39,611 nt of DNA from Singulisphaera sp. (GTDB lineage: Bacteria; Planctomycetota; Planctomycetia; Isosphaerales; Isosphaeraceae). Of this stretch, positions 4,320-34,709 are shown piece after piece (the first letter of the stretch is position 1; every line of letters starts with the position of its first letter). A program made the position numbers and the translations under genes. The stretch is from positions 1-39,611 of the forward strand of contig DAIDJG010000056.1 in NCBI GenBank assembly GCA_027451445.1. The letters are read 5' to 3'. Under the pieces are notes generated by a model. That model saw only the letters and a program-made list of their open reading frames with translations, did no database searches and was not told where the DNA came from.

Positions 4320-4462
4320 AAGAAAAGGCGATCTATCCGCAGATGTCGCAGATGGACGCAGATTTAAAAATGAAGTCCATTAAATCAATTATGAATAATT
4401 ATCAATTTACTCATAATTATCTGCGTCCATCTGCGACATCTGCGGATAGATCGCCTTTTCTT
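4320..4462. repeat. GCAGAT palindrome, copy 1 (perfect 44-bp inverted repeat)
   Basis: Arms 4320-4363 and 4419-4462 are perfect complements (44 of 44) around a 55-base AT-rich loop. The inner arm contains GCAGATGTCGCAGATGGACG, with GCAGAT repeated every 9-10 bases. The outer 14 bases, ending in AAAAGG, are unique to this copy. It sits directly behind the DUF1501 stop and could end transcription in both directions. Copies 2-5 lie at 24971, 27231, 31853 and 31992. Confidence 0.85.
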
Positions 4463-5825: not shown

Positions 5826-5955
5826 CTGGACCGTCAGGCCCGCGCAAATCGCACACCGGTGTTTCTACCGTCTTGACGGAGACTCGCCACGTCCTCATCA
5901 TAAGTGACGCACGGACGCTCCCCGCTTATCATGATGTCGCGGAGGATCGGTCCCC

Positions 5956-6441
5956 GTGTGTTCCCGCCCCTTGACGATCGCTCGCGAACGCAAGCACTCC
6001 CGCCTGTACTGGCTGGGGGTGCTGTTGGCGTTTTGGGCGGCTGTAGGGACACAGGAAGGCCGGGCCGCATCGCTCTCGCCGGCTCGTCAGGAAGCCCCCG
6101 CCGTGCGCAAGCACCGGTGCAAGTGCGCGGTGGACTGCGATGGGCGATGCTGCTGCGTTCGGCGCGAAAAGGCAAAAGCCGCTCCGTCCCAGGATGCCCC
6201 GAGTCCGGTATCGCAAACGAGCGCAGGCCCCTGTGTTCGGTCCCTTCCGTGTGATGAAGGAGACAGCGCCCCGACCGCTTCGCCCCAGATGCCGGTGGGC
6301 AAGTTTGCCGCTTGTGTGAATTTGGTGCATGTACTCCCGACTGGGCCTGGATCCGCGCTCTGCCAGAATCTTCTCCATCTTTACACGCACATCGTCGCTA
6401 CTCGCCTTGATGACCCTCCCGACGCCGCCCTGTTCGTTTGA
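5956..6441 (+). CDS. Small secreted Cys-rich hypothetical protein
   Basis: 161 residues from a GTG at 5956 with GGAGG about 11 bases upstream. A basic N-terminus followed by YWLGVLLAFWAAVGTQ is a signal peptide, so it is probably exported. The mature part has a dense cysteine cluster, HRCKCAVDCDGRCCCVRR (about residues 53-70), and four more cysteines later, suggesting disulfides or metal binding. No family is recognised. A similar cysteine run occurs in the phage-region protein at 15736-16335, though overall similarity is not evident. Confidence is moderate because codon choice is the main support. Confidence 0.5.
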   Translation: MCSRPLTIARERKHSRLYWLGVLLAFWAAVGTQEGRAASLSPARQEAPAVRKHRCKCAVDCDGRCCCVRREKAKAAPSQDAPSPVSQTSAGPCVRSLPCDEGDSAPTASPQMPVGKFAACVNLVHVLPTGPGSALCQNLLHLYTHIVATRLDDPPDAALFV

Positions 6442-6613
6442 CGGTTAACTGGCTCCTGGGTTTGCGACTCAGGGCCGGGGATGATGCCGCGCGCCGTGCG
6501 GCTGACGATCGTCCATGACGTGTCCAGGGCTTTGTCTCGAGCAAGGATCAGTGCGATCTGACGCGCCTCGCTTCCGTTGCGGGTGCCCGGATCGTGCGAG
6601 GAGCTTTCTTCCG

Positions 6614-7576
6614 ATGCGGCATCAGCGTCGAGGTTTCACTCTCATCGAGTTGTTGGTTGTCATTGCGATCATCGCCGTGTTGATCGCCCTGCTCCTCCCA
6701 GCAGTACAAGCCGCCCGCGAGGCGGCCCGTCGCGCCCAATGCGCGAACAATCTCAAGCAGGTTGGCCTGGCCTTGCATAATTACGCAGACGCCATGGGAG
6801 CACTACCACCGGGGGTGCTCTCGCGACCCAACCCGACCACCGGCGACAACGCGGGCCCGGGCTGGGGCTGGGCATCGATGATCCTGGGCCACATGGAGCA
6901 AACCGGGGTCTTCAACGCGACCAATTTTTCGCTGGGGATCGAGTCGCCGGCGAACTCGACCGCTCGAGTGGCTCAGATCAACGCGTTCATATGTCCGAGC
7001 GATGCGAACTTCATGCCGAGGTTTACCGTGGTCGACACGAACACCACGAACGTTACGCTCGGCAACTCGATCTGCGACGTCGCGTCGTCGAGCTACGTCG
7101 GATGCTTTGGCACGGGGGATCCCTCGAGCCTTTATCCGTTTAGTCCCAGCGATGACCCGCCAGGTCGAGACAGGGGCGAAGGACTGTTCTTCCGTAACCG
7201 CTCGGTACGCATCGAAGAGATCCTTGACGGTACGAGTCAGACGATCGCCGTGGGGGAGAAAAGCCAGAACCTTGCGCGGGCGACCTGGACCGGGGCGGTC
7301 ACGGGGGCCGCTGTCCCCATCACCCAGCTTCAGTCCGAAAACGGCCTCTCGCCCGAGGGCGGAGATGCACTCGTGGTTGCTCACACGGGGGAACTGAACG
7401 GGCCCAACTCGACTCCTGCCCACGCGGACCAGTTCTGGTCGCTCCATCCCGGCGGCGCGCAGTTCGCATTTGCCGACGGAAGTGTGCGGTTTATCAAGGA
7501 GAAGCGGCCTTTGGTCATCTTCAAGTCGCTCGCCACACGCCAGGGGTGCGAGGTCGTCTCGGCCGACTCGTATTAA
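6614..7576 (+). CDS. DUF1559 protein with type II pseudopilin-like N-terminus
   Basis: 320 residues starting MRHQRRGFTLIELLVVIAII: a short basic leader, the prepilin-peptidase site G/FTLIE and a long hydrophobic helix. The DUF1559 (SBP_bac_10) body follows, with AREAARRAQCANNLKQVGLAL and the diagnostic H-x9-DG motif (His278 to Asp288-Gly289). The family is hugely expanded in planctomycetes; members are cleaved and methylated like pseudopilins and are presumed envelope or secretion components. I chose the ATG at 6614, preceded by GAGGAG, over an open frame 99 bases further upstream, because the prepilin leader must be short. Confidence 0.9.
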   Translation: MRHQRRGFTLIELLVVIAIIAVLIALLLPAVQAAREAARRAQCANNLKQVGLALHNYADAMGALPPGVLSRPNPTTGDNAGPGWGWASMILGHMEQTGVFNATNFSLGIESPANSTARVAQINAFICPSDANFMPRFTVVDTNTTNVTLGNSICDVASSSYVGCFGTGDPSSLYPFSPSDDPPGRDRGEGLFFRNRSVRIEEILDGTSQTIAVGEKSQNLARATWTGAVTGAAVPITQLQSENGLSPEGGDALVVAHTGELNGPNSTPAHADQFWSLHPGGAQFAFADGSVRFIKEKRPLVIFKSLATRQGCEVVSADSY

Positions 7577-7737
7577 TCCTTGCTCGAGGCATATGGCTTA
7601 CCGGAGATCAGTGAGCGGCTGGATCGCGCCAGCCTAACGCGACTTCCCTTGATCAGGAAGCATTTCTCGATTCCGGCGCCGGGGACATCCCCGGCGAGCC
7701 GCGCACGTCGCAGGGCTGGGCTCGCCCTTGCCGAGGC

Positions 7738-7765
7738 TGGCATGGCGCCCGTTCGGCGATATAAT
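7738..7765 (+). promoter_or_regulatory. Candidate sigma70-type promoter
   Basis: A perfect TATAAT at 7760-7765 is preceded 16 bases upstream by TGGCAT (7738-7743), a weak -35. It lies about 92 bases ahead of the ATG at 7858, in the 281-bp gap after the DUF1559 gene, where no convincing gene was found. Pattern-based only. Confidence 0.35.
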
Positions 7766-7857
7766 TCGTCTCCATAGAGTGTTCAACGACCGACCCTGGA
7801 AACGCGCGGCTCTGGCTGGGAACGTTCGCGCGTGATACGACCAACAACGAGGATCCC

Positions 7858-8739
7858 ATGGACGCCTATGAAGCGCCGCTCGAGCCGTTAGAACCTGTCA
7901 AGAAGCCACGCGGGTGCTTCTTCTATGGCTGCGTGATCGCCTCGGTCTTGACCCTGCTGCTGCTGATCGCGTTGGGGATCGGCGGGTTCATGGTGTACCG
8001 TGGGATCACGGCGTTTATCGAACAAAACACCTCCACGACGCCCATGCCTCTGCCCCATGTCGAGCTCCCGCCCGAACAGATGGAGGACCTCGACAAGCGG
8101 TGGGAAACCTTCTTCAAGGATGCTGGGACCGATAAGGACGTACCGCCTCTCGTGCTGACCGCCGACGAAATCAACGCCAAGATTGCACAAAACGCTGAGC
8201 TCAAGGATCACGTGCACGTCGAGCTCCCCGGCGATCGGATTGCGGGGCAAATCAGTATCCCGCTCGAAAAAACGGGCTTCCCCGGCACGAAGGGCCGCTA
8301 TCTGAACGGCAAAGCCTCGTTCCGCGTCGAGCTGGTGAACGGAACCCTCTTCGTCTTCCTCGAGTCGCTCGAGGTTAACGGCAAGCCCATTTCCGAGGAC
8401 GCGCTCAAGAGTTTCCGGAGCCAAAATCTTGCGGCCGACGTCGCCAACAAACCGGAGAACGCCAGAGAGATCGAAAAGCTGGAGAGCATCGAAGTCAAGG
8501 ACGGGAAACTGATCCTGAAAGCGCGCAAGAAGCGGACCGAGGATCAGGAAAAGACCCCCGATGCCGAGAAGCCCAAAGCCGATGCCCGTGACGACAAGGC
8601 AAAGGCCGAGGACAAGCCGGCGGCGGATACCGAGAAGCCGAAAGCGGATGGTGGTGAAGACAAGGCGAAGGCCGAGGACAAGCCGGCGACCAAGGCCGAC
8701 GAGAAGGCGGAGGAGAAGACCCCCGCCGAAGTGAAGTGA
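7858..8739 (+). CDS. Membrane-anchored protein with charged repetitive C-terminal tail
   Basis: 293 residues. A short cytoplasmic part ends in RGCFFYGCVIAS, followed by one membrane helix (about residues 26-48). The extracytoplasmic domain (about 60-215) has VELPGDRIAGQISIPLEK and resembles planctomycete proteins of unknown function. The last 80 residues are low-complexity Lys/Ala/Asp/Glu/Pro, built on DKAKAEDKPA and EKPKADG repeats that appear twice. Such tails are disordered and often span or bind envelope material. The start ATG follows AACGAGGATCCC with a GAGG. The function is unknown. Confidence 0.7.
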   Translation: MDAYEAPLEPLEPVKKPRGCFFYGCVIASVLTLLLLIALGIGGFMVYRGITAFIEQNTSTTPMPLPHVELPPEQMEDLDKRWETFFKDAGTDKDVPPLVLTADEINAKIAQNAELKDHVHVELPGDRIAGQISIPLEKTGFPGTKGRYLNGKASFRVELVNGTLFVFLESLEVNGKPISEDALKSFRSQNLAADVANKPENAREIEKLESIEVKDGKLILKARKKRTEDQEKTPDAEKPKADARDDKAKAEDKPAADTEKPKADGGEDKAKAEDKPATKADEKAEEKTPAEVK

Positions 8740-8874
8740 ACCCGTTCCGGGTTCCGTGGAGTGCGTGGAGCTTGCGCCCGCTGTCGAGTTCGGATCACCG
8801 GCTCGATCGCGGGCGGGAGCGACTCCCTCGAATTCCCGGGCCCTCGGTGCCTACCGGTTGTTCGCAGGACGCGG

Positions 8875-10167
8875 TCAGCTCCAGAAGTTCTCCAACCGTT
8901 CCTTCGGCGCTACTCCCAGCGGGAACTGCTTGCTGAACTGGTGATCTTGAATCCCTGCCAGCTCCCGAAGCGCCTGATGTACGTGTTCCGGGCGCACGCG
9001 AATGCCCTGTTCCTTGTCGAAGGCCAGCGTCTGCGGATTGACCGGCACTAACTGTTGTTTTTCGTCCGTGGCGCCCATGACACGGTTCCCGGCGATCCCT
9101 TGTCCCAGGAACATGATCGAGCCGATCGACCAGTGGTCCTTACCGTTGCCCTTGTTGTAATCGGGCGTACGGCCCATCTCGCTCTGGATGACCACCACCA
9201 GTTTCTCGCGGATCTTCAGCTCCTCGGCCTTCCGCATCAGGTGGTCGATCCCCGCGAGGAATTGCGGGATCAACTTCATCTGATCGACGTCGTTGTTGTT
9301 ATGGCTGTCGAACTGGCCGATCGAGAGGTTGGCCGCGACGCACACGCCCCCCTTGAACGCCGCGAGCGAGATGTCGACTTGCTGGGCCAGCGGGTCCTTG
9401 GAGGGTTCCTTGGGGATGAACGGCACAACCCTTTGCAGGGCTTTCGAACTCACCTGGGCGGCGTAGAGCATGCTCCGGCTACGTTCCACGCGCGGGAGCC
9501 GGGCCTCAGAGACGCGAGCTTCGAATTGTGCTTCCAGAGCTTGCTCGATCCGGCTCGACACGAACGGATCGTGGTAAGGACTGCGCGGGTTTCCCTCGAC
9601 GCCGTCGGCGTTGGCCAGCAGGTTGAGCGACTGGAGATAAGGCACGCGCGACATGGGCACAAGGTTCCCCGTTGCCGAGTAGTTGCCGAATGTCAGGAAC
9701 GCCAAGGGCGCCTCGGATCCCCGGCAGGCTGCGACAAGGGCCGGAAACGTGGGATAGGCCAGGCTATCGAGCTTGCCCGTCGCCATGTAACGGGCGCAGG
9801 GCGTGTGGTTGTTCACGGAGAAGTCGAGCCCGTTGAACACCCGCAGCTCCACGCCGTACTTCGCGAAGAAGTCCTCGTTGCTCATCCCTTGCTTGATGTG
9901 CTTCGCGGTGGGGGCGAACTTGTGCGGGCCGGCAGTGACGATGTCGCCTTCCTGATAGAGGCGGTTGATGCCGCCGATCCCCTTGGGATCCATCAGGTAC
10001 GTGGTGTCCCAGCCCCCGGAGGCGTTGAAGACCACGTAAAAGGGACCGTCGTAGCCCTGGGAGGCCGACGCGTCTTCCTTCCCGCGCGCGCGGGATTGCA
10101 GGCCGATCGGGACGGCGAACCCCAGGCCCGCGAGACTGCACCGTCGCAAAAAGTCGCGGCGTGACAT
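8875..10167 (-). CDS. DUF1501 family Tat-exported protein, second copy
   Basis: 430 residues starting MSRRDFLRRCSLAGLGFAVP, a classic twin-arginine signal (SRRDFLRR). The body shows DUF1501-type blocks: FNASGGWDTTYLMDPKG, NIGQF-like SIGQFDSHNNND, VVVIQSEMGRTPDYN, and GKDHWSIGSIMFLG with the metal-site His. It is only distantly like the copy at 2873. It starts ten bases after the stop of the cytochrome gene upstream on the same strand, so the two are almost surely co-transcribed. In related pairs the cytochrome and DUF1501 partners act together in the periplasm. I chose the start at the Tat signal; a longer open frame upstream overlaps the cytochrome gene and is not real. Confidence 0.85.
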   Translation of the reverse strand: MSRRDFLRRCSLAGLGFAVPIGLQSRARGKEDASASQGYDGPFYVVFNASGGWDTTYLMDPKGIGGINRLYQEGDIVTAGPHKFAPTAKHIKQGMSNEDFFAKYGVELRVFNGLDFSVNNHTPCARYMATGKLDSLAYPTFPALVAACRGSEAPLAFLTFGNYSATGNLVPMSRVPYLQSLNLLANADGVEGNPRSPYHDPFVSSRIEQALEAQFEARVSEARLPRVERSRSMLYAAQVSSKALQRVVPFIPKEPSKDPLAQQVDISLAAFKGGVCVAANLSIGQFDSHNNNDVDQMKLIPQFLAGIDHLMRKAEELKIREKLVVVIQSEMGRTPDYNKGNGKDHWSIGSIMFLGQGIAGNRVMGATDEKQQLVPVNPQTLAFDKEQGIRVRPEHVHQALRELAGIQDHQFSKQFPLGVAPKERLENFWS

Positions 10168-17950: not shown

Positions 17951-19657
17951 ATGGCACAGAAGAGTGCAGGAAACAAGCGGGGCGTCTCTCGGACGAAGGC
18001 CAGGCCCCAACCCCAGCAGGACGCACTGGAGCACGATGACCGGCAGGACGCCGGCACAACCAAGCCGCAATCGTTCCGAGAATTCGTCGATCGGGTCGAC
18101 TCACGTTATCGGTGGTACCGGCACTGTGAAGTCCTCGCGTCCGTCTTGCAACGCGTGGCTGACGGGCACTTGAAACGGCTCATGGTTTTCGAGCCCCCGC
18201 GACATGGCAAGAGCCAGGCGGTGAGCCGGCTCTTCTCAGCGTACTATCTCAGCCGCTTCCCGCAGCGCTGGGTCGGTCTCACCTCCTACGGTGCTGACCT
18301 CGCGTATACGCTGAGCCGCTCCGCTCGCGACCATTACCAGAACAGCGGCGGATCTCTTCGCGAAGGCGCAGGCTCGGTCAAGCACTGGGAGACCGGCGCA
18401 GGAGGCGGCATGTGGGCCTGCGGCGTCGGTGGGCCGATTACCGGTAAGGGCTGGCACCTTGGCATCATCGACGACCCGATCAAGAACGCGGCCGAGGCCG
18501 CCAGCGAGACGATCCGGGCGAAGCATAAAGATTGGTATGAATCCACATTCTACACCCGCGAAGAGCCGACCGCCGAAGGCGACCCGGATGGGGCCGTCAT
18601 CGTCATCCAAACGCGCTGGCATGAGGATGACCTCGCCGGCTGGCTCCTCGCCCAGGAAGACGGCGACGACGAGCCCGAACGCTGGCACATCGTCTGCTTT
18701 GAGGCCATCAAGGACGAGGCACCACAACAATTCCCGAACTCGTGTACCGTCGAGCCCGATTGGCGTGCCTCCGGTGAGGCCCTTTGCCCCGAACGCAGGC
18801 CCAGGGAAAAGCTCGAGCGGATCGCGCGCCGTATCGGTTCCTACTTCTGGGCCGCCCTGTTTCAGCAGCAGCCCCAGCCGGCAGCCGGAAACAAGTTCAA
18901 ACGCGAGTGGTTCCGCCGCTGGCGGTCCGAAACGGTGCTCTGTCCGCGTTGTCAGGGGCAAGGGATGTCCGGTCGGCAGCCTTGCTCTCACTGCATCGCT
19001 TCCGGGCGGGTCATCCGCTATCACCTGGAGCGTAAGGATGCTCCTCCCAAGCTTGTGAACGCCGCGGAGTGCCGGCGTTTCGGCACGGTCGACCTGGCTG
19101 TCTCGTTGCGAACGTCGGCCGACTACACCGTGCTCGCCGCCTGGGCGGTGACTCTCGAATCCGAGCTCATCCTGCTCGACCTCGTACGTGACCGTTTTGA
19201 AGAACCGGACATCCTCAAAGAAGCGCGTGCATTCTCCACAAGGCACGGCCTGGGCTACCTCACTGTCGAATCGAATGGAATGCAGCTCGGCATCGTGCAG
19301 AGCTTGCGCCGGGGTTCGAAGGACGACCAGGGCCGCGCTCGGGGTGATGCCCTGGCTGTGCGCGGGTTGTCGAGCAGCACCGACAAGATCTCGCGTGCTT
19401 CGACTGCCATCGTCGCGTGTGAAGCGGGCCAGCTTTACCTTCCCCAAGCGGCGCCGTGGGTCGGCGAGTACGAAAAGGAGCTCCTCGCCTTCCCGAACGC
19501 GTCGCACGACGACCAGGTCGACGTGACCAGCCTGGCTGCAAACGACGTGTTCAAACGCGGCGGTTCTGGCGGGGAAACCGACGCGTTCGACGACGACTAC
19601 GAGCGCGAGATCGAGGCCGAACACCGGCGTGCGGACAATCCGCTGTGGTGGAGTTAG
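17951..19657 (+). CDS. terL: Phage terminase large subunit with DnaJ-type zinc-finger insertion
   Basis: 568 residues. The packaging ATPase has Walker A PPRHGKSQ (82-89) and Walker B GIIDDP (171-176), followed by TRWHEDDLAGWLL. The C-terminal nuclease has a metal Asp in FGTVDLAVS (Asp381) and HDDQVD (520-524), as in Terminase_6-type proteins. It cuts concatemeric DNA and pumps it through the portal. Between the two domains, CPRCQGQG...CSHC (Cys331, 334, 345, 348) followed by SGRV is a DnaJ-style zinc module not usual in this family. It begins about 20 bases after the holin candidate, and the next structural genes follow directly. Confidence 0.93.
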   Translation: MAQKSAGNKRGVSRTKARPQPQQDALEHDDRQDAGTTKPQSFREFVDRVDSRYRWYRHCEVLASVLQRVADGHLKRLMVFEPPRHGKSQAVSRLFSAYYLSRFPQRWVGLTSYGADLAYTLSRSARDHYQNSGGSLREGAGSVKHWETGAGGGMWACGVGGPITGKGWHLGIIDDPIKNAAEAASETIRAKHKDWYESTFYTREEPTAEGDPDGAVIVIQTRWHEDDLAGWLLAQEDGDDEPERWHIVCFEAIKDEAPQQFPNSCTVEPDWRASGEALCPERRPREKLERIARRIGSYFWAALFQQQPQPAAGNKFKREWFRRWRSETVLCPRCQGQGMSGRQPCSHCIASGRVIRYHLERKDAPPKLVNAAECRRFGTVDLAVSLRTSADYTVLAAWAVTLESELILLDLVRDRFEEPDILKEARAFSTRHGLGYLTVESNGMQLGIVQSLRRGSKDDQGRARGDALAVRGLSSSTDKISRASTAIVACEAGQLYLPQAAPWVGEYEKELLAFPNASHDDQVDVTSLAANDVFKRGGSGGETDAFDDDYEREIEAEHRRADNPLWWS

Positions 19658-19670
19658 AAGTACGTTTCAC

Positions 19671-20012
19671 ATGCTAGAGCCACATATGAGGCAATATTCG
19701 GAATCGGTCGACCTGCATTCCATTTCTCTTCCCCTGGAGCCGCTGGGCGACTACGTCGTGTTGAAACGACTGGAAGCGGCAGCAACGGGGATCGTCGTTC
19801 CCGAGGGGGCACGCCAGATCTCGAACCGTGCGGTCGTGCTCGCGGTCGGACCTGGGGTCATCGACCCAGCCGGCACTCGCACCCCGGTCTCTCTCGAGGC
19901 CGGTGATGAGGTGCTGGTGTCCCCTCGGGTGGGAACGGACGTGCGGATTGGGAGCGTCGTCGTCACGCTCGTTCGGGCCGACGACATTTTTGGACGCTGG
20001 GATGCATCGTGA
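19671..20012 (+). CDS. GroES/Cpn10-like co-chaperonin in phage head module
   Basis: 113 residues. From residue 22, LEPLGDYVVLKRLE, GIVVPEGARQ, AVVLAVGPGVID, LEAGDEVLVSP and VRADDIFGRW follow the order of the GroES fold: strand DRVIVKR, mobile loop, GEVLAVG, VGDxVLF, and the final DILAI-type strand. The mobile loop is shorter than in E. coli GroES but keeps a Gly-Ile-Val-Val core, which could bind GroEL. A phage GroES-like protein such as T4 gp31 helps the host chaperonin fold capsid protein. That role here is inference. It lies between terminase and gp10-like genes; two nearby starts (19671 or 19686) are possible. Confidence 0.75.
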   Translation: MLEPHMRQYSESVDLHSISLPLEPLGDYVVLKRLEAAATGIVVPEGARQISNRAVVLAVGPGVIDPAGTRTPVSLEAGDEVLVSPRVGTDVRIGSVVVTLVRADDIFGRWDAS

Positions 20013-20476: not shown

Positions 20477-22798
20477 ATGACTTATCGCTACGAGGCCTAC
20501 CTCGACGAGGGCGCTGCGCGCTGGATTCGGGCCGCCCAGGCGGGCGAGTTCGTCGAAAAGCGCGTGCAAGGCGGTCCCCCCAGCTACTCGACGGGCGGCT
20601 GGAACAGCGGTCCAGCCTTCACCGACTGGAACCGGACCCGACGCGCTCCCACGCCCTTTGACCTCGTCGAGGCCTGGCGACAGCTCACGTTCGGCTGCTC
20701 GGTGCTCAACGCCAATGCGGTCAGCCGGCAGCCGCTACGTCTCTTTGTCTCGACGTCGCTCGGTCAGCACCGTCCCAAGAGCTATTTGCGAGGCCGGCCC
20801 CTCACTCGCGCGGCCTCCGGCTACCTGCGGTCTCAACCCGAGTACGGCCAGTACGTCAAGTCCGCCGAGGAGATCGACGAGGTCACCGAGCATCCTCTGC
20901 TGACGCTGCTCGGCGAGGTGAATCCCGACTGGGACCACATCCGCCTGATCCGTTACACGTCGATCTGTCTCGACATCATCGGCCGCGCCCACTGGCTCCC
21001 CGGCGACGAGCGGGGCCAACCCACGCGCGGCCGGCTCGTCCCGCCGTTCCTCTGGCCGCTGTTGGCTCAGTATGTCCTCCCGTACCGCGACTCCGAGGGG
21101 TCGCTCGTTTCGCACTACAACTACTTCTCGAACGAGTACGACCCGACCGAGCTCATCAACTTCCGCGGCGACTCCTTGCGCGATCCCTATGCGCTGGGGC
21201 AATCGCCGACGCAGGCGGCCTTCGCGTTCGTGGGCCTGAGCGACAGTTATACGCAGTTGATGGAAAACATGATGACGCAGAGCATTCGCCCGAGCGTCAT
21301 CGTGACAAACAAGAATGCGAACGAGCCTTTCGGCGACGCCGAGCGCCGGCGGCTCCAGCGCGAGATCAACTACCAGTTGAGCGCGGGGGGTGCGGGGAAG
21401 GCATGGGTCGTCGACGGTTCGGTCGACATCAAGACGCTCACGTTCCCGCCGACGTCGCTGGCCGAGAACGAGATCAGCGAGACGGCGGTCAAATACGTCT
21501 CGTTCATCTTCGGCGTACCGCTCAGCTTTCTGCGCAATGAAGACTCGAACCGCGCCGTGGCCGAGGCGGGCCACTACCAGCACGCGAAGCTCGGCGTTGA
21601 GCCGCGTTGCGTGAACATCGCGTCGACCTTGACGAAATGGACCCATGCCGAAGGCCGCCGCCGAGGTCAGGACTGGTCGCGGCTGCTCTGGGCCTTTGAC
21701 AACCCCGTGAAGGAGGACGAACAGCGCGAAACGACGATCTTCGACATGCGGCTCAAGAACGGTTCGACGACCGTGAACGAGTACCGCATGCACCTCGGCT
21801 ACAATCGCGTGCCTTGGGGCGATGAGCCGTGGCTGCCGAGCTCGCTCGTGCAGCCGAGCGCGGCGAAGGAACAGAGTCAGACCAGTCGCCGTCCAGAGAT
21901 AGGTAGTCCAGACGATTCGTTAGACGATCAGGAGAAACAGTACAGGCGCAAGTCAGAATCCCTCGTCGCTCGTGTTGACGATCGAGGTGCGATTGTCCCA
22001 GATGCGGTCGGCAATACGCTTGAACATGCTCCTGACTCGGTGTATTCCGCTTTCGAGGGTCCAGGATCCGCCGATGCGGCGATTTCAAGGGCATTCAAAT
22101 CTGATCGCGGTAGGGGCCGCCAGCGGTATCGGTTTCGCGGGGTCAGAGTCGGCGCGAACCAACCGAGGTTGCGTTCCGCAAGCGGCCGTCCCAGAGCAAA
22201 CGGCGGCCGAAAAGGCAATCCCTATCATGACGAGCGAGGCCGCTTTGCAAGCGGCCCGCACAGCGGTCGACAGGCGAGGGCTCGCCGGCGAAGACGAACT
22301 CGCACGCAGGCATTCCGACCCCTTGCCAAACCGGCTCTCCAGAGTGTACATTACGACACATCGCTCATTCCGGGACCGAATCCCAACAAGTTGAGACAAA
22401 GAGTCGTCACCACTCCCACGTCGGGACAAGGAGGTGTTTACCTCAAACCACAAAACGGCAAGTTGAAGATCGGTTCCACAAAAGACTTCAAGGGACGGTA
22501 CGGGAAGAAGGAACCCGAGCCGATTCAAATCGAGATTCTCCAAACCCGCGACCGAAAACCACGGGGAGTGAACGACCAAGAGTATCCGTGGACCCCTCGA
22601 AAACAACGGCGTTTTGATGAGGAGTATGTCGACCGGACGATTCACCCAGATGCACGGTATCGAGCGGCTGACGAGAAAGGACCGGTCCGAGCGGAGAAAT
22701 GGAAGAAATACCGCCATATTTTCGGGTATGGCAATGTTCCGGAAGACTTTAATCACAAGGGACTTCGCCGATGGACGAGCTTCTTCGACAGTTACTGA
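20477..22798 (+). CDS. Phage portal protein with C-terminal GIY-YIG/URI toxin-like domain
   Basis: 773 residues, far longer than the usual 400-500 of HK97-type portals. Residues about 1-470 are portal: blocks such as SIRPSVIVTN, VKYVSFIFGVPLSFL and STTVNEYRMHLGY fit the family, which forms the dodecameric DNA channel. About 470-580 is linker; 580-593 is GNPYHDERGRFASG, the short motif common where phage structural proteins join extra domains. Then comes a basic stretch ARARRRRRTR. The last 120 residues hold GGVYLKP (Gly653-Val-Tyr655), KIGSTKDFKGRY (664-675, with Arg674) and Glu715/716, the GIY-YIG nuclease order. Codons in this tail are less GC-rich than in the portal part. The likely immunity gene overlaps the end. 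The toxin role is inference. Confidence 0.82.
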   Translation: MTYRYEAYLDEGAARWIRAAQAGEFVEKRVQGGPPSYSTGGWNSGPAFTDWNRTRRAPTPFDLVEAWRQLTFGCSVLNANAVSRQPLRLFVSTSLGQHRPKSYLRGRPLTRAASGYLRSQPEYGQYVKSAEEIDEVTEHPLLTLLGEVNPDWDHIRLIRYTSICLDIIGRAHWLPGDERGQPTRGRLVPPFLWPLLAQYVLPYRDSEGSLVSHYNYFSNEYDPTELINFRGDSLRDPYALGQSPTQAAFAFVGLSDSYTQLMENMMTQSIRPSVIVTNKNANEPFGDAERRRLQREINYQLSAGGAGKAWVVDGSVDIKTLTFPPTSLAENEISETAVKYVSFIFGVPLSFLRNEDSNRAVAEAGHYQHAKLGVEPRCVNIASTLTKWTHAEGRRRGQDWSRLLWAFDNPVKEDEQRETTIFDMRLKNGSTTVNEYRMHLGYNRVPWGDEPWLPSSLVQPSAAKEQSQTSRRPEIGSPDDSLDDQEKQYRRKSESLVARVDDRGAIVPDAVGNTLEHAPDSVYSAFEGPGSADAAISRAFKSDRGRGRQRYRFRGVRVGANQPRLRSASGRPRANGGRKGNPYHDERGRFASGPHSGRQARARRRRRTRTQAFRPLAKPALQSVHYDTSLIPGPNPNKLRQRVVTTPTSGQGGVYLKPQNGKLKIGSTKDFKGRYGKKEPEPIQIEILQTRDRKPRGVNDQEYPWTPRKQRRFDEEYVDRTIHPDARYRAADEKGPVRAEKWKKYRHIFGYGNVPEDFNHKGLRRWTSFFDSY

Positions 22799-24970: not shown

Positions 24971-25056
24971 ATCCGCAGATGTCGCAGATGGACGCAGATT
25001 AGTTAATAATATTTTTATAATAATTCAATCTGCGTCCATCTGCGACATCTGCGGAT
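24971..25056. repeat. GCAGAT palindrome, copy 2
   Basis: Arms 24971-25000 and 25027-25056 are perfect 30-base complements (ATCCGCAGATGTCGCAGATG at the outer end) around a 26-base AT-rich loop. It lies in the 354-bp gap between protease and capsid, and could act as a transcription terminator or processing hairpin. The rest of the gap, 25057-25292, holds no recognised gene. Confidence 0.85.
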
Positions 25057-27230: not shown

Positions 27231-27325
27231 ATCCGCAGATGTCGCAGATGCACGCAGATTAATAGATAATTAAAGTAATTAGACTACGATGATTCAATCT
27301 GCGGTCATCTGCGACATCTGCGGAT
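27231..27325. repeat. GCAGAT palindrome, copy 3
   Basis: Arms 27231-27260 and 27296-27325 are complementary at 28 of 30 positions around a 35-base AT-rich loop. It lies between the decoration candidate and the connector, ending 22 bases before the next ATG. Confidence 0.82.
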
Positions 27326-28316: not shown

Positions 28317-28340
28317 AACGAGCAGGCGACGGTGAGTCCC

Positions 28341-28703
28341 ATGCCGAACCACCTGACGAACAACATTCTCACGAACCGCGTCGATCTTTATGTGTTCCAG
28401 CCTTCTCAGGACCCGGACGCCGGGGCCGTGGGAGACGACTCGGCCTATCCCTTGCCGCTCGCGCAGAGCGTGCGCTGTTCGGTGCAGCCCGAGCCGCCGG
28501 AGCGCTACACCGATCAGGAACGTCAGAGCGGGCTGACAGTGTACAACGTCCTGTTCCGGAAAAACTACGGACTGAGCGTCAACGACCGCATCGTGTGGGT
28601 CGATGACAACGGCGTGACGCGCACGCTCGTGGTGACACAGACCCGCAACCTCGCGGGGCGCAGCGGCGCCTGGCACGTGAGGGCGCAGGAGCGGTTTCCA
28701 TGA
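28341..28703 (+). CDS. Head-closure / head-tail adaptor protein
   Basis: 120 residues. SVRCSVQPEPPERYTDQERQ, VYNVLFRKNYGLSVNDRIVW and TRTLVVTQTRNLAGRSGAWH give a small beta-barrel like SPP1 gp16-type head-closure proteins. I used the ATG at 28341; a GTG nine bases upstream is possible. The stop overlaps the next start (ATGA). Position after the connector supports the role. Confidence 0.65.
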   Translation: MPNHLTNNILTNRVDLYVFQPSQDPDAGAVGDDSAYPLPLAQSVRCSVQPEPPERYTDQERQSGLTVYNVLFRKNYGLSVNDRIVWVDDNGVTRTLVVTQTRNLAGRSGAWHVRAQERFP

Positions 28704-29356
28704 CACTTTCCGGCTGCATCATCGCTCGCGACGCGTTGCGATCCCTGCCGGCGGCGATCGCTAGTTTGATCGGCCACGTCGATCGTTTGCTCGTCCTGGT
28801 TGACGATCGCACGCGTGACGGCACGCAGGCCTGGCTCACGGCCCTGGATTGGCTCAAGCCCGCGGGCCTCGTCTGGGACACGTTCACGTTCACCGAGGTC
28901 GGTGGATTCGGCGCCGCGTTCAACGAAGTGCGCGGCCGTGCGGATTGCGATTGGGCCTTCGTGCTCGACGCCGACGAAACGATCGATCCTCACCACGCCA
29001 GGAATCTCCGCATGCTCGTCGAGCGAGCTGTCAGCCAGGGAGCGGACTGCGTCGCGTTTGCACGGATCAACTGGTGGAATCTTGGACGCACGCATCAGAA
29101 GGAAGAGTGGTTCCCCGATCGCCAGCTTCGTCTCATGCGGCGCGACCGCTGGTACCACTGGCGAGCCCATCCCTGCCCCCACTCGGATCGCCTCATGATC
29201 GTCGAGCCCGACGAACTGGTGATTCACCACTTTAATCTCGTCTATCGCTCGAACGCTGACTGGCACGAGATCGCTCAGTTCTACAAACGACAGCTCGAGC
29301 TCGACATTGCCGACGGACGCAACTTGACCGGACAGAGCGAGGCACAGCGCCCATGA
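28700..29356 (+). CDS. Family 2 glycosyltransferase in the virion operon
   Basis: 218 residues. GCIIARDALRSLPAAI is the nucleotide-sugar-binding start of the GT2 (GT-A) fold. FVLDADETID contains the DxD metal/sugar motif (DAD 90-92). EEWFPDRQLRLMRRDRWYHWRAHPC follows, as in TPR-less SunS/Alg-type GT2 members. It is soluble. ATGA overlaps at both ends couple it to the adaptor gene and to a second glycosyltransferase. The acceptor is unknown; virion protein glycosylation is the simplest inference from location. Confidence 0.85.
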   Translation: MTLSGCIIARDALRSLPAAIASLIGHVDRLLVLVDDRTRDGTQAWLTALDWLKPAGLVWDTFTFTEVGGFGAAFNEVRGRADCDWAFVLDADETIDPHHARNLRMLVERAVSQGADCVAFARINWWNLGRTHQKEEWFPDRQLRLMRRDRWYHWRAHPCPHSDRLMIVEPDELVIHHFNLVYRSNADWHEIAQFYKRQLELDIADGRNLTGQSEAQRP

Positions 29357-30567
29357 TCGTGGTCATCAAGGCACATCTGACGTCGTGGTCCGGCTACGGT
29401 CTTCTGGCTCAACATCTCGGCCAGGCGATCGAGTGCCAGGGCCACGCCGTGCATTACGTGCCGATCAGCATCGACGAGCATTTCGGACCGCTTGACCCTT
29501 TCGTTCGAGATCGGCTGGCGCCCAAGGCCCGCCCGACGTTGACCATAACGAATCCGCCGGCGGCATCCTCCGGAACGGAACGCTCGGACGTCCTCTTCAC
29601 GATGTGGGAAACGACCCGCTTGCCGCTCGGTTCGGCCGAAGCGATCAACGCGTATCCGTGCGTCGTCGTCCCCTGCCATGCGAACGCGCACTGGTTCCAG
29701 GACTCCGGCGTCACCGCGCCTGTTGTGGTGGCGCCCCTCGGCATCGAGCCGACGCAGTTTCGTCCCCTGCCTGAAGGCCCCACAGTCTTCGGCGCGGCCG
29801 GCAGGATGGCTCACGGCGGCAACCGAAAGGGTCTATCGGAGGTGATGCACGCTTTTGTCCGTGCCTTCCCGTCCACTCCTGACGTTCGCCTCGAGGTCAA
29901 ATGCTGGCCCGACTGCCTCAATCGACTGGATGTTCCGGACGACTCGCGGATCCGGATCGTCACCGACTGCTGGACGCGAGAGGAGCTTTCCGGCTGGTAC
30001 GACCGGATCACATGCTACGTCACGGCCTCGAAGGGCGAAGGGTGGGGCCTGCACACCCTGGAAGCGATGACACACGGCCGGCCGGTGATTGCGACCCGAT
30101 GGTCCGGCACCGCGGAATTCTTCGACTACCGCTTTGGCTGGGAGCTCGAATATGACCTGGCCCTGGCGACCGGTCTCTACGCGGGTTCCGGCGAGTGGGC
30201 GGTTCCTCGAGAAGCTAGTCTCGTCGAGGCGCTTCGGGCCTGCCATCAAGACCGCACTCTTGCCCAGACCAAGGGGACCGAGGCGGGCTCGTGGGCCAAC
30301 GGGTTTACCTGGAGCCGGACGGCCGAGGTGGTGTTGAGCGCCTTGGCTATTGCGGAGATTCGCAACCGAGAGCGCTGGCCGGGCGGGCTAACAGATCACG
30401 AGGCGATGAACGTCGAGACAAAGCTCGCGCTAGCGAACACATGTTCGCATCTTTCACGACGAAACTGGATCGCGATCTGCAAGGCTGGGCGCGGTGGGAT
30501 CTCGCCCCATTTTGCGGTTCCTGCCGACTTATGTTCGGCTTGCGTCGAGCGCGGAGGGCACCAGTAA
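29353..30567 (+). CDS. GT4-type glycosyltransferase (GT-B fold) in the virion operon
   Basis: 404 residues. The C-terminal half shows AAGRMAHGGNRKGLSEVMHAF, then KGEGWGLHTLEAMTHGRPVIATRWSG (about 226-252), the donor-site E-x7-E region of family 4 transferases. The N-terminal acceptor domain begins IVVIKAHLTSWSGYGLLAQHL. The final 60 residues, with WIAICKAGRGGISPHF, are additional. It is coupled on both sides: ATGA upstream, TAATG downstream into the lectin-like gene. With the GT2 it likely adds two sugars to a common target, possibly a capsid or tail protein. Confidence 0.85.
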   Translation: MIVVIKAHLTSWSGYGLLAQHLGQAIECQGHAVHYVPISIDEHFGPLDPFVRDRLAPKARPTLTITNPPAASSGTERSDVLFTMWETTRLPLGSAEAINAYPCVVVPCHANAHWFQDSGVTAPVVVAPLGIEPTQFRPLPEGPTVFGAAGRMAHGGNRKGLSEVMHAFVRAFPSTPDVRLEVKCWPDCLNRLDVPDDSRIRIVTDCWTREELSGWYDRITCYVTASKGEGWGLHTLEAMTHGRPVIATRWSGTAEFFDYRFGWELEYDLALATGLYAGSGEWAVPREASLVEALRACHQDRTLAQTKGTEAGSWANGFTWSRTAEVVLSALAIAEIRNRERWPGGLTDHEAMNVETKLALANTCSHLSRRNWIAICKAGRGGISPHFAVPADLCSACVERGGHQ

Positions 30568-31271
30568 TGGAGGTCATCACCAGCCAGAATTGGGACGGTG
30601 TCAGCCCCCCCGCGTTGCCCAGCGGGTGGACGTACGATGTGGGCCTTGCAACTGTGACGCTCTCGGGCACAGGAGTTACTCCCGTTTCCAGTCCCAATTT
30701 TCTCGGATCGGGTGACTCCGGCAATTGGGTCACGGCGACCTATGACACCCCGGATTCCTCCGGAGGAAACGTCCTCGTTTCCGCGGCGTTCGTCGCGACG
30801 TCCACGATATCGCCGGCCGGTGCGAGCGCCGCACTTTTCGCGCGCAGCGGCGCATACGGGGTGATCATGCGCTTGAGCACGGGCTCGATTGCGATCGCTC
30901 GCGACGTGACGACATCGCCTGTCGAACTGGTCAGTTTGAGCACAACCTTCGCTGGTCAAACCTGGTACCTCGTTCAGTTCACGTGCATCGGTCCGATTTT
31001 GTCGGTCAGCGTGCAGGGTTTGACGGATTCCCTCTGGCTTCAGAGTGACGGGTCGTGGGGTTCCGTTCCCGCGATCTGCCTCACGACGAGCAATTCCGCC
31101 GTCAGCGGGTCGGGCACGGCCGGGATCATGCTTTATAACGACAACAACGGATACGAAGGTACAACGATCGCTGATGCCTTCTCCGACAATTTCGAGTTCG
31201 ACTCGCTGGGCGACATCCTGCCGCCGGTGTTCGTTGGCCGCTATAGCCCGATCCGGTTCCTGAACAGCTAG
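30567..31271 (+). CDS. Concanavalin/LamG-like beta-sandwich protein, candidate virion lectin
   Basis: 234 residues starting MEVITSQNWDGVSPPALPSGW, with GGAGGG before the ATG that shares a base with the previous stop. The alternating beta pattern, YGVIMRLSTGSIAIARDV, TWYLVQFTCIGPILSVSVQG and the closing IADAFSDNFEFDSLGDI, fits a LamG/concanavalin-type jelly-roll that binds glycans. There is no signal peptide. It could display on the virion, bind the glycan made by the two transferases, or bind a host surface. These roles are inference. Confidence 0.65.
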   Translation: MEVITSQNWDGVSPPALPSGWTYDVGLATVTLSGTGVTPVSSPNFLGSGDSGNWVTATYDTPDSSGGNVLVSAAFVATSTISPAGASAALFARSGAYGVIMRLSTGSIAIARDVTTSPVELVSLSTTFAGQTWYLVQFTCIGPILSVSVQGLTDSLWLQSDGSWGSVPAICLTTSNSAVSGSGTAGIMLYNDNNGYEGTTIADAFSDNFEFDSLGDILPPVFVGRYSPIRFLNS

Positions 31272-31383: not shown

Positions 31384-31845
31384 ATGGCTCGTCTCCAAGG
31401 CTCTTTCGCCCTCGCCCCGACCAGCATCACCGGGGGGACCCCGCAAACCCTGATCCAGATCGCCGCGCCGACCAACCAGCGGCTGGCGATCACCCAGCTC
31501 ATTCTGAGCTTCGACGGCACCAACTCGGCCAACACGCCGGCCACGGTCAAGGTCGAGCGCCAGACGGGTGGCACGTTTACCAACACGGCCGTGGCCCCGA
31601 AGAAGATCAACGATCCCTCCGGTACCGGTGAAACGTTGCAGGCGGTCGCACACACCGCGGTAACAGCCGAGCCTACCGAATCGGACGTCCTCGCCGAGTT
31701 CGTCTTCCCAGTGTTCGGCGGTTTCGGGTCGATCCCCTATCCGCTCTTCCAGGAAATCGTCGTCCCCGGTGGCACACTGCTCGGCATCAAGATCGCAGCG
31801 GCGCAGACGGTCAACTGCTCCTTGACCGTGATCTACGAAGAATAA
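31384..31845 (+). CDS. Beta-rich phage structural protein
   Basis: 153 residues, starting MARLQGSFALAPTSITGG with GAAAGGA upstream. It is Thr/Ala/Val/Gly-rich beta sequence (NQRLAITQLILSFDG, ETLQAVAHTAVTAEPT, GTLLGIKIAAAQTVNCSLTVI), resembling small head-fibre or decoration-type proteins. The last 30 bases of the gene, with the repeat behind it, have been copied in tandem (31816-32093). No family recognised. Confidence 0.55.
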   Translation: MARLQGSFALAPTSITGGTPQTLIQIAAPTNQRLAITQLILSFDGTNSANTPATVKVERQTGGTFTNTAVAPKKINDPSGTGETLQAVAHTAVTAEPTESDVLAEFVFPVFGGFGSIPYPLFQEIVVPGGTLLGIKIAAAQTVNCSLTVIYEE

Positions 31846-31852
31846 GGGACTT

Positions 31853-31934
31853 ATCCGCAGATGGCGCAGATGAACGCAGATTTAAGAATTTTTGGGTGTG
31901 ATTCAATCTGCGTAAATCTGTGACATCTGCGGAT
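31853..31934. repeat. GCAGAT palindrome, copy 4
   Basis: Arms 31853-31882 (ATCCGCAGATGGCGCAGATG at the outer end) and 31905-31934 are imperfect complements around a short AT-rich loop. It begins eight bases after the stop of the structural gene. Confidence 0.8.
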
Positions 31935-31991
31935 AGAACATCTTCCCCTTCCCTTGCTCCTTGACCGTGATTTACGAAGAATAAGAGACTT

Positions 31992-32073
31992 ATCCGCAGA
32001 TGACGCAGATTTACGCAGATAAAAAAATAGTTAAAAATTCTAAAATCTGCGTTCATCTGCGAAATCTGCGGAT
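31992..32073. repeat. GCAGAT palindrome, copy 5
   Basis: Arms 31992-32020 and 32044-32073 pair imperfectly around an AT-rich loop. It is part of the second unit of the tandem duplication with copy 4. The gap 31846-32159 contains no gene besides these repeats. Confidence 0.8.
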
Positions 32074-32159
32074 AGAACGTCTTCCCCTTCCCTACTCTGT
32101 GGATAGGTCGATTCTCCGTGTTTAACTTCGGGTCCTCGCGCCGACGCGGCATTCTCGTC

Positions 32160-34277
32160 ATGACCGAGCATGTCTCACCGGCGACGTCCTCGCAAGCTTT
32201 GCCCTGCCCGACTCGGGTTGGCCCCGCTCCCCTGGCGCGCGGATTGATCGGGCATGCTCCGTCGGTGCGCGTGTATCGCACGCCGATCCCGAGTCTGCCT
32301 CCGTCCCCGGTGCGGTCTGCGCCGTACGTCAGTATGCCGATCCGCCGGGCTGTCGCGGCCACGCTGATGGTTGCGACCGTCGTCCAAACGCGCCCGGCGA
32401 CGAACCCCGCGACGCCTCAAGGACCAGTGGATGTTGGGCGGACGCCGACCGTGGGACGGAGCTTGCTCGGCAAGACCCAACCCGTCGTCGTCCAGACGCG
32501 GATGCCGGAGCGCCCGCCGACACCACAGACGCAAGAAGCGTTCATCGGGCGACTCCCACGCGGCCGGCGGCTCGCCGGGATCGGCGGGCCGTCGATCCTC
32601 GTCAAGTCGGTCATCGACGAGCGGCCGCCAACCCCGCAGACACAAGAAGCGATCGTTGGGTGCGTGCCTCGAGGGCGGAAACTGGTCGGCAACGGCGGGC
32701 CGACGACATTCGTCAAGACCACGATCGACGTTCGTCCGGCCTCGTCACCAACTCCGGCTGTCGGCCGCGTGCCACACGGCCGGCGCCTCCTCGGCCAGGC
32801 TCCGCCGGTCTTCGTCTCGACGGCCGAGACATTCCCGCGCTGTCCGCCGACACCGAAGCCGTTCGTGGGAACGCTGCCCTCAGCGTCTTCGACGTTACGG
32901 CGTGTGGTGCGGGCCGCATCCCGCGGCGTGTCGATTCCGGAACCGGTTCCACCACGGCTCCACATTGCGCAGCCCGCGCGGTTTCAGCCAACACGACTGC
33001 TTCTCGCACTCAAGGTGTGGTCGGGCAGCGCCACTCCCCAGCCGAAGCCGCCGAAATGTCATGTCGCGAGAGTCCCGCGCCGGGCTCAGCCGGTCTCGTC
33101 TGCGCTCGTCGTGCGACCGGCCAGTTCCGAGCAACTTGCGATCCTCCCGCGCAGCGCGATCGGTCGATTGCCCAGGGCACGCCCAGAGCCGCCGGCGGCG
33201 TTTGTTGCGCGTCCGCCATGGCCCACAGCGCCGATCCCGTCGCGACCCGTAGCGATCGCTCCCACATCGCGACGTCCTCAGACGCTTTCGCCGACCGTTG
33301 CGCGGACAACCCTGCGAGTTGCCCTGCCGCGCCCGGCGTCGTACTTCGGTGTCGCGACGAGGCTTCCTCGTCCGTGCAAGCCAGCGACGCTCGCGAAATC
33401 GGCCACATTCTGGCAAATGCCCGGGCGGCCAGTCAGTGGTTCGCCACCGAAAAAACGGACACTTCCACGCTCCGTCGTCGTCACGTCATCGGCCTCCGGT
33501 GGTGTGCCGATCCCCCGCGTGCAGGTTGGCAAGAGCGCGAACGCGCGACCGCAGCCCTTGCCTGTGGTTGGGCTCCGCCCGGCGTCCGCCGGCGCCGTCG
33601 TCCAGCCACCGGCTCCGCACGGCTTGCTGCTGCCGCCCCGGCGTCCGCAGGTGGTGCGAGCGCTCGGACTGCGCACGCTCCCGGCCTCGACCGCGAACAC
33701 GACAAGGCCCCCGACCCCCTACGCCCTCCAGTGGCCCTTGCGCCCTCGGCCGCTGCCCTTGCCCGGGCTGCTCGTTCGTGCACCCTGGACCGCGACGGGC
33801 CTTCCGCCGGATCTCCCCGCCGCCGCGATCGGCTGGCTCCGACGGAGTCCCGCCGTGGTGTCGGCATTCGGCGAGAACCTGGCGGCCAATCCCCCCATGT
33901 ATAAACTCTTCGGCGACTGGAACTCGACGAAATCTCCGATGCCGTACCTGGTCTACCAGGAGGTGTTCGAGGGTACGGGCGATTATGAGTCAGCGGATCC
34001 CACCGGACTCATTCACGGTTACCCGCAAGGCCGGTTCCAGGTCTCGATCTTCGCCGCCGGCAAGAAGCAGGGCCGGGACCTGGCGCGGCTCGTGGCGTGG
34101 ACGCTCAACGATGCCCCGCTGACCTTCGCCGACGGCGTCCTGCTCGAGCTCCGTCTCGATTCGATCCATGCGATCCCGGAGGGCAATATCGGGCCGAGCG
34201 GGGTCGTGACGGCGTACCACTTCGCGTTGACATTCCTTTATCGCGTCGAACGTTACTTGACGAATCCAACCCCATAA
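32160..34277 (+). CDS. DUF3168-like tail-completion domain fused to long Pro/Arg-rich repeat region
   Basis: 705 residues from the ATG at 32160 (a GTG 42 bases upstream is also in frame). The C-terminal about 145 residues (VVSAFGENLAANPPMYKLFG, QGRFQVSIFAAGKKQGRDLA, VVTAYHFALTFLYRVE) match DUF3168/gp17-type tail-completion proteins, normally 120-150 residues long. The preceding 560 are strongly Pro/Arg/Val-rich, probably disordered and very basic. Around 85-232 a unit of about 37 residues repeats four times with consensus TP...GR.P.GR.L.G...P...RPP. Third-position GC and lack of stops in this frame support it. The next gene is the tail tube, which fits a tail-joint role; the basic tail may bind DNA or coat other virion parts. 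Confidence 0.72.
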   Translation: MTEHVSPATSSQALPCPTRVGPAPLARGLIGHAPSVRVYRTPIPSLPPSPVRSAPYVSMPIRRAVAATLMVATVVQTRPATNPATPQGPVDVGRTPTVGRSLLGKTQPVVVQTRMPERPPTPQTQEAFIGRLPRGRRLAGIGGPSILVKSVIDERPPTPQTQEAIVGCVPRGRKLVGNGGPTTFVKTTIDVRPASSPTPAVGRVPHGRRLLGQAPPVFVSTAETFPRCPPTPKPFVGTLPSASSTLRRVVRAASRGVSIPEPVPPRLHIAQPARFQPTRLLLALKVWSGSATPQPKPPKCHVARVPRRAQPVSSALVVRPASSEQLAILPRSAIGRLPRARPEPPAAFVARPPWPTAPIPSRPVAIAPTSRRPQTLSPTVARTTLRVALPRPASYFGVATRLPRPCKPATLAKSATFWQMPGRPVSGSPPKKRTLPRSVVVTSSASGGVPIPRVQVGKSANARPQPLPVVGLRPASAGAVVQPPAPHGLLLPPRRPQVVRALGLRTLPASTANTTRPPTPYALQWPLRPRPLPLPGLLVRAPWTATGLPPDLPAAAIGWLRRSPAVVSAFGENLAANPPMYKLFGDWNSTKSPMPYLVYQEVFEGTGDYESADPTGLIHGYPQGRFQVSIFAAGKKQGRDLARLVAWTLNDAPLTFADGVLLELRLDSIHAIPEGNIGPSGVVTAYHFALTFLYRVERYLTNPTP

Positions 34278-34295: not shown

Positions 34296-34709
34296 ATGCG
34301 CAACGTGCGGACAGGCAAGGGAGCATCACTGCTCATCAACAACATCACCGTGCCGATCACGAGCCTCAAGAGCAACCTGAACACGGAGTACGCCAAGGCG
34401 ACGGACAGCGCAAACTACGTGGCCGCCACCGATACCCTGTACACGGCCCAGGTGCCGGGCGAGACCAATCTGAAAGTGAGCGTCGAGGGCCATTTCGACT
34501 TATCGCAAACCTCTGCGGCGATCTTCTCGCTGATCCAGACGGGGGCGGTCGTGTCGGCCACAGTCTACGACTTCCCTTCCAGCGTCTTCGCCTCGGGCAA
34601 CTTCAATGTCGGCAACGGCTCGACGACGCTGACCGTGCCGGGCTCCACGATGTACACCTTCTCGTGCGATCTGATTTCCAACGGCCCGTACACGCTCGGA
34701 GGTGGTTGA
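34296..34709 (+). CDS. Candidate major tail (tube) protein
   Basis: 137 residues, with GAAGGAGAG before the ATG. Beta-type sequence with LLINNITVPITSLKSNLNTEY, LKVSVEGHFDLSQTSAAIF and a hairpin-rich end STMYTFSCDLISNGPY is consistent with the tube fold of siphovirus tails. Its location between the tail-completion protein and the tail assembly genes is where the tube gene is expected. Family not firmly recognised. Confidence 0.6.
   Translation: MRNVRTGKGASLLINNITVPITSLKSNLNTEYAKATDSANYVAATDTLYTAQVPGETNLKVSVEGHFDLSQTSAAIFSLIQTGAVVSATVYDFPSSVFASGNFNVGNGSTTLTVPGSTMYTFSCDLISNGPYTLGGG

Follow-up and report, generated by a model that had tools for sequence, protein, structure and literature searches.

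A long Pro/Arg-rich repeat arm fused to a tail terminator in the neck region of a Singulisphaera phage module

Tail terminators form hexameric rings on the tail end nearest the head; they are usually small and belong to the best-conserved components of long-tailed phages. The stretch of Singulisphaera sp. DNA analysed here (39,611 nt, referred to as the window; assembly of 10.9 Mb in 622 contigs) holds a gene that the original prediction described as a tail-completion domain with a long Pro/Arg-rich repeat extension. That observation is confirmed below, and with an arm 3-4 times the size of the terminator ring bearing it, the locus raises the question of what this arm is, whether it is translated and what it may do at the neck of the virion.

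The window carries a tailed-phage module with genes for a terminase, a GroES-like protein, a portal, a protease, a capsid protein and a head-tail adaptor, followed in order by a probable head-closure gene, two glycosyltransferases, a 234-aa protein, a 153-aa protein, the arm gene, a weakly matching major tail protein and more tail genes (Table 1). The AF2 model of the 234-aa protein was uninformative, and alignments of the tail tube and distal-tail proteins retrieved no viral relatives. Within the head module, the GroES-like gene (19629-20012; phrog_3188, E 5e-14) encodes a Cpn10 co-chaperonin, and the portal gene (20477-22798; 773 aa) has a long basic C-terminal part containing a stretch that, judged by eye, we take to be GIY-YIG-like. 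The glycosyltransferase genes (28700-30567) separate head closure from the neck cassette; in a congeneric genome (G001; locus L123, reverse strand) a glycosyltransferase-like gene is found at the corresponding place and a sulfotransferase-like one further up (by eye). Imperfect palindromes with ATCTGCG units recur at 31852-31935 and 31991-32074 and near 4338-4444, 24974-25053 and 27234-27324, and a 139-nt tandem duplication that takes in one palindrome copy plus the last part of the 153-aa gene lies just 5' of the arm gene.

Table 1. Features of the neck cassette, in positions of the window.
Feature	Position	Strand	Basis
Probable head-closure protein	28332..28703	+	Position and likeness to the gene preceding the terminator in contig L014; no family match
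234-aa protein of the cassette	30567..31271	+	Conserved in G001 (44%); no family match
153-aa conserved protein of the neck region, used as marker for the cassette context	31384..31845	+	
272-nt gap with palindromic repeats, 153-aa gene to arm gene	31846..32117	.	
Complete gene (719 aa) with a repeat arm at its N-terminus, fused to the tail terminator	32118..34277	+	Same architecture in G001, L158, L159, L165
N-terminal tag (VFNFGSSRRRGILV), from likely GTG start up to ATG 32160	32118..32159	+	Arg-rich tag in 18/20 chosen relatives
Six recognisable repeat units, 32-40 residues each (residues 29-242)	32202..32843	+	
Remaining Pro/Arg-rich arm, units not recognisable any more	32844..33794	+	
Tail terminator domain (PF11367)	33795..34274	+	Profile and predicted fold
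Probable tail tube protein, encoded just after the arm gene	34296..34709	+	phrog_10528 major tail protein, E 0.0024

The C-terminal part of the protein (last 160 residues) is an ordinary tail terminator, and profile, fold and gene position agree with the tail-completion domain that had been proposed for it. Residues 573-692 match PF11367 (Tail_completion_gp17; E 5e-5), with 23.8 bits for the whole protein (just under the cut-off of 24.5), 27.2 bits in another search, above the cut-off, and 27.1 bits for the G001 counterpart. In an AF2 model (domain pLDDT ~40-86 by blocks), residues 555-719 have the terminator fold with the expected helices and strands, the arm joining at helix 566-576. Among the solved terminators matched by VIA-align at Z ~8-12, including those of GTA, Douge, NF5, T5 and lambda, 6tba_4A was the best (Z 12.4, rmsd 2.9, 129 aligned), many others having Z 8-10. 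The gene comes after the head-tail adaptor and before the tail-tube gene. In profile, predicted fold and this place the domain thus resembles known PF11367-type terminators (lambda gpU, SPP1 gp17, T5 p142, GTA 6tba chain 4A), and it presumably forms a hexameric ring as they do. However, those solved terminators comprise ~130-160 residues, whereas the window's protein has 559 extra N-terminal residues.

This extension is composed of 18.1% Pro and 11.6% Arg, is also rich in Ala and Val, and bears a net charge of +66. Its strongest autocorrelation is at lag 37 (z 3.9; 95% maximum of block shuffles 3.53), with a near-multiple at lag 72 (z 3.4), in line with the long basic region and units of about 37 residues originally read from it. 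About six units lie within residues 29-242, two adjoining copies being exactly 111 nt each and 70% identical, and residues beyond 242 do not score as copies. The AF2 model gives the arm almost no secondary structure at a pLDDT near 30, a low confidence that, with 4 aligned rows behind it, is weak evidence of disorder; the arm is probably disordered. At the thresholds used, the extension matched no Pfam or PHROG family, and no adhesin domain was found on it.

The gene is a single frame running from GTG 32118 (719 aa) or ATG 32160 to the stop at 34277. The frame originally proposed from ATG 32160 holds, but its start probably does not: GTG 32118 is more likely, because the 14 intervening residues hold an Arg-rich tag common to relatives (see below). 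A start near the terminator domain, which would leave the upstream frame untranslated, was looked for and not found, no ATG lying upstream of the domain within 126 codons in the window or 422 codons in G001; possible late non-ATG starts are TTG 33759 (window) and GTG 1788 (G001). The extension frame is open across 559 codons in both genomes and stayed open in 8 of 2000 dinucleotide shuffles for the window and 15 of 2000 for G001. Codon usage put the frame first of six in two of six extension windows for the window's gene and in five of six for G001 by the full score, and in four of six for both by its synonymous part; the weak point is mid-extension (32718-33618), where no clear preference for the arm frame was seen. 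Differences between the adjacent 111-nt copies fall 9/6/18 by codon position (11/5/17 in another register; chi-square p 0.04), as is typical when a frame is translated. Long false frames do precede PF11367 in GC-rich genomes as Arg-rich shadows of an overlapping natural gene, and most open frames of 300-390 aa at this position (loci L037, L039, L069, L070, L086, L088) were rejected as such off-frame shadows. No natural-looking alternative frame was seen by eye over the window's extension. On these several lines of evidence, translation of the arm frame is well supported.

The architecture recurs in the congeneric genome G001, where the extension is likewise exactly 559 residues long. Contig C319 of this genome ends in homologues of the window's 234-aa (44%) and 153-aa (67%) proteins and its contig C142 opens with the extended terminator, so that the gene order agrees across the contig break. 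The terminator domains are 76% identical (dN/dS 0.14); the extensions cannot be aligned residue by residue. Their global alignment scored above all 100 shuffles, the local one did not exceed the best of 200, and ungapped alignment at offset 0 was no better than at other offsets. A molecular ruler was considered for the equal lengths and rejected, the arms of three viral contigs (L158, L159, L165) having ~330, 391 and 194 residues; the identity in length may be a coincidence.

How rare such an arm is was estimated from two surveys, in which arms were counted solely from frames inspected by eye, as frame length alone misleads in GC-rich genomes. Among 397 genomes of the class, PF11367 was found at 75 places in 55 genomes, and only at three of the 75 was the open frame at least 500 aa long (the window, G001 and G039), which makes the window's length unusual. 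Among 392 genomes of the phylum, 24 had PF11367 matches, no further real arm was present among the long frames inspected, and the terminator alignment A1, used for a wide search, hit the window alone. In Singulisphaera and in IMG/VR contig L014, the related terminators are plain, without an arm; G044 encodes a 405-aa terminator with ~270 extra N-terminal residues. A match in G041 was set aside as chance, the gene being amidase-like by eye. The long frame of G039 (L061 7256-11036) belongs to a prophage and comprises 1128 aa, with two Laminin_G_3 stretches and Ala/Asp-rich repeats of ~25 residues before the terminator. This fused terminator sits in a phage module and is followed by a second, plain one. 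Like the window's protein it carries N-terminal repeats on a PF11367 domain within the same bacterial family, but it differs in its lectin domains, its Ala/Asp-rich repeats and the second terminator, and it is an independent fusion, a parallel case in which terminator duplication possibly freed one copy to carry an adhesin.

The conserved 153-aa gene next to the arm gene led to further loci. A profile built from six 153-aa proteins matched 21 places in 17 of the 397 genomes and 14 loci in IMG/VR, and 30 loci were examined: all 14 viral ones and, of the 21 genome places, the 16 strongest (E below 1e-25). In five of the 30, the 153-aa gene is directly followed by a terminator with an N-terminal arm (the window, G001, L158, L159 and L165), the adjacency in G001 being inferred across the contig break; in the window, the 153-aa gene (31384-31845) is followed by the arm gene at 32118 across the 272-nt gap. 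For the three viral contigs, PF11367 gave 23.8 (L158), 24.5 (L159) and 42.6 bits (L165), and our own profile, its training rows included, gave E 4e-46 to 4e-54. At nine loci (G031, three in G559, two in G091, L166, L167, L170) the next gene encodes a separate Pro/Arg-rich protein, of which two (G559b, G091b) bear an additional C-terminal domain. In G031, G559 and G091 the 153-aa gene and the arm gene lie within a few bases of each other, at L154 and L156 tape-measure genes follow, and in G031, L166 and L167 the separate arm version precedes connector genes. Period-35 repeats on another domain follow at L162, and basic proteins with period 20 at L160, L164 and L171. The L164 protein (5405-9385; contig 47% GC), directly after the 153-aa gene, reaches 1327 aa, with repeats of ~20 residues (z 20-24 at lags 20 and 40) and a net charge of +120.

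The next gene was different or unclear at the other 12 loci, including G005, G017 and G014, where Pro/Arg-rich stretches precede fibronectin-like domains (by eye). No arm followed the 153-aa gene in three of the 16 genome loci (G590, G682, G550) and two of the 14 viral ones (L161, L168), and the proteins following it in G601 and G702 may be basic. None of the arms received a Phrog or Pfam name, although the C-terminal part of the L154 protein touches the fibre-tail adaptor family PF23148, below its cut-off. The modularity of the arm, which is mostly a separate gene or placed on another domain and only in five of these loci part of the terminator, is well supported.

An Arg-rich tag (R-R or R-x-R in residues 2-17; SRRRG in the window) was present in 18 of 20 chosen proteins, compared to 6.3 expected from their own internal windows, and in 15 of 17 without near-duplicates (5.2 expected). 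None of 50,000 simulations reached the observed count, a probability that is optimistic because the 20 were chosen by eye after the tag had been seen in some of them, leaving out ten of the 30 loci on account of a dissimilar or non-adjacent next gene (G590, G601, G682, G550, G702, G014, G017, G005, L161, L168). The order of the neck genes and the common N-terminal tag count as shown. In the Pro/Arg class the periods are 31-39 where significant (L158 and L167 have no significant period), and most relatives are basic, a few being weakly charged or acidic (L162 +3, L163 -4, L169 +3). Repeat profiles gave no detection beyond shuffles, whether built from window or G001 units (21 and 116 of 200 shuffles as good), from mixed cores (46 of 500) or from units of five prophage loci (186, 121, 102 and 198 of 500). 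Sequence homology of the arms is therefore not claimed, three profile designs having failed to cross-detect, and their probable kinship rests on position, tag, composition and period.

For the separate arm versions of five prophage loci, dN/dS was 0.38-0.94 over all 10 pairs, the highest value coming from a pair at 34% identity for which the alignment is doubtful, compared to 0.06-0.12 for the adjacent 153-aa protein, so that the arm is 4 to 15 times higher. As all 10 values lie below 1, the separate arm is translated and constrained, but loosely. The original suggestion of a rapidly evolving linker stands as far as the fast evolution is concerned; a mere linker is contradicted by the separate small proteins, which have nothing to link.

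Several known neck structures invite comparison. The neck passage structure proteins of lactococcal phages (TP901-1 ORF51 and the 936 group) are long and variable, forming non-essential fibres in TP901-1 and appendages with carbohydrate-binding parts in the 936 group (PMC4493119, PMC6669499). The arm resembles them in length, variability and presumed neck location. They differ in having a gene of their own (downstream of the baseplate genes in TP901-1), a carbohydrate-binding or hydrolase-like C-terminal part and no terminator fusion; the window's C-terminal domain is the terminator instead. The terminator of phage 812 has an outer addition as well, but this is a folded beta-sandwich; that phage also has neck decorations, which are separate proteins, and putative whiskers (PMC12886913). 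A tblastn search of the window's protein, a 153-aa homologue and a separate arm protein against 50,697 phage records gave no match, and a full-text literature search on extended, disordered or fused terminators and on planctomycete phages found no description among the papers listed, in agreement with the earlier statement that no described phage tail protein of this type was known. As far as these searches reach, the terminator is of a known kind and the arm and its cassette are undescribed.

With regard to function, we give an even chance to a mostly basic plug-in repeat arm of the virion neck, here fused to the terminator, that would form outward whiskers and serve as an auxiliary adhesin. 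The gene would then be a fusion between a terminator and an arm from a fast-evolving, mostly basic repeat class encoded beside the 153-aa neck-region protein of planctomycete phages and prophages. Six arms per virion, each with a charge of +66, would surround the neck as a disordered polycationic fringe, most likely contacting the anionic surface polymers of the host reversibly and electrostatically. The failure of the repeats to detect each other, the five loci at which no arm follows the 153-aa gene, the missing adhesin domain, the weakly charged or acidic arms and the Ala/Asp-rich repeats of G039 speak against this reading. Neck location, outward projection and adhesion are what we infer. 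The channel of the phage 812 terminator is beta-lined, with the helices arranged around its outside (PMC12886913); since the arm enters at helix 566-576, it would by analogy leave outward. Of the possibilities first raised, a fibre or whisker is favoured. A tentative, more general reading would see an unnamed plug-in module of planctomycete phages, consisting of the Arg tag and fast-evolving, mostly basic repeats (~35 or 20 residues) and swapped between C-terminal anchors (terminator, fibronectin-like or adaptor-like domains, or none) beside the 153-aa protein, and yielding, when on the terminator, six polycationic whiskers that grip the anionic host surface.

Given that neck appendages of other phages are carbohydrate-binding or non-essential fibres, the auxiliary electrostatic whisker is favoured and a cement or collar is its main rival, though a somewhat doubtful one. 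Here the basic extended arm would run outside the virion along the capsid vertex, neck or tail and stabilise the head-tail joint, perhaps with its Arg tag docked on the 153-aa protein. The constant place of the arm beside that gene in the neck region, the common tag and the separate versions located before connector genes fit such a role, as does the report that neck decoration proteins of phage 812 are thought to reinforce the neck (PMC12886913); a cement would nevertheless keep its contacts, yet the arm changes fast in sequence and length. Less probable still is a neutral or decaying extension, functionless in itself and free to take on almost any sequence, or a GTG or TTG start near the domain. 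The poor codon signal mid-arm in the window, the failure to align with G001 and the possible late starts would be expected from it, but 559 codons are open in both genomes, three more viral contigs have the arm, the separate versions are under purifying selection and the N-terminal tag is conserved. Binding of packaged DNA, with the basic arm inside the neck channel holding the DNA end, is disfavoured and seems very unlikely: the charge of +66 and the basic nature of most relatives would suit it, whereas the arm enters at a helix of the kind lying outside the channel in phage 812 (PMC12886913), six arms of 559 residues are by our own estimate too bulky for the channel, and the repeats of the parallel case G039 are not basic.

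If the arm is a whisker, it offers a defined gene with which to test how planctomycete phages adsorb, a subject on which we found little in print; as a cement it would be unusual, being built of quickly turning-over repeats. Either way, the 153-aa gene is a marker for finding such unannotated neck cassettes.

Two further observations concern the phage of G001. A second protein of this phage (L123, reverse strand, 6297-7289) ends in ~150 Pro/Arg-rich residues, in which RRLPRRAAGV resembles a motif of the terminator arm. Finally, the 13.3-kb contig that begins with the terminator has the start of a portal gene at its far end (L006 12804-13301), as in a circularly permuted phage genome.
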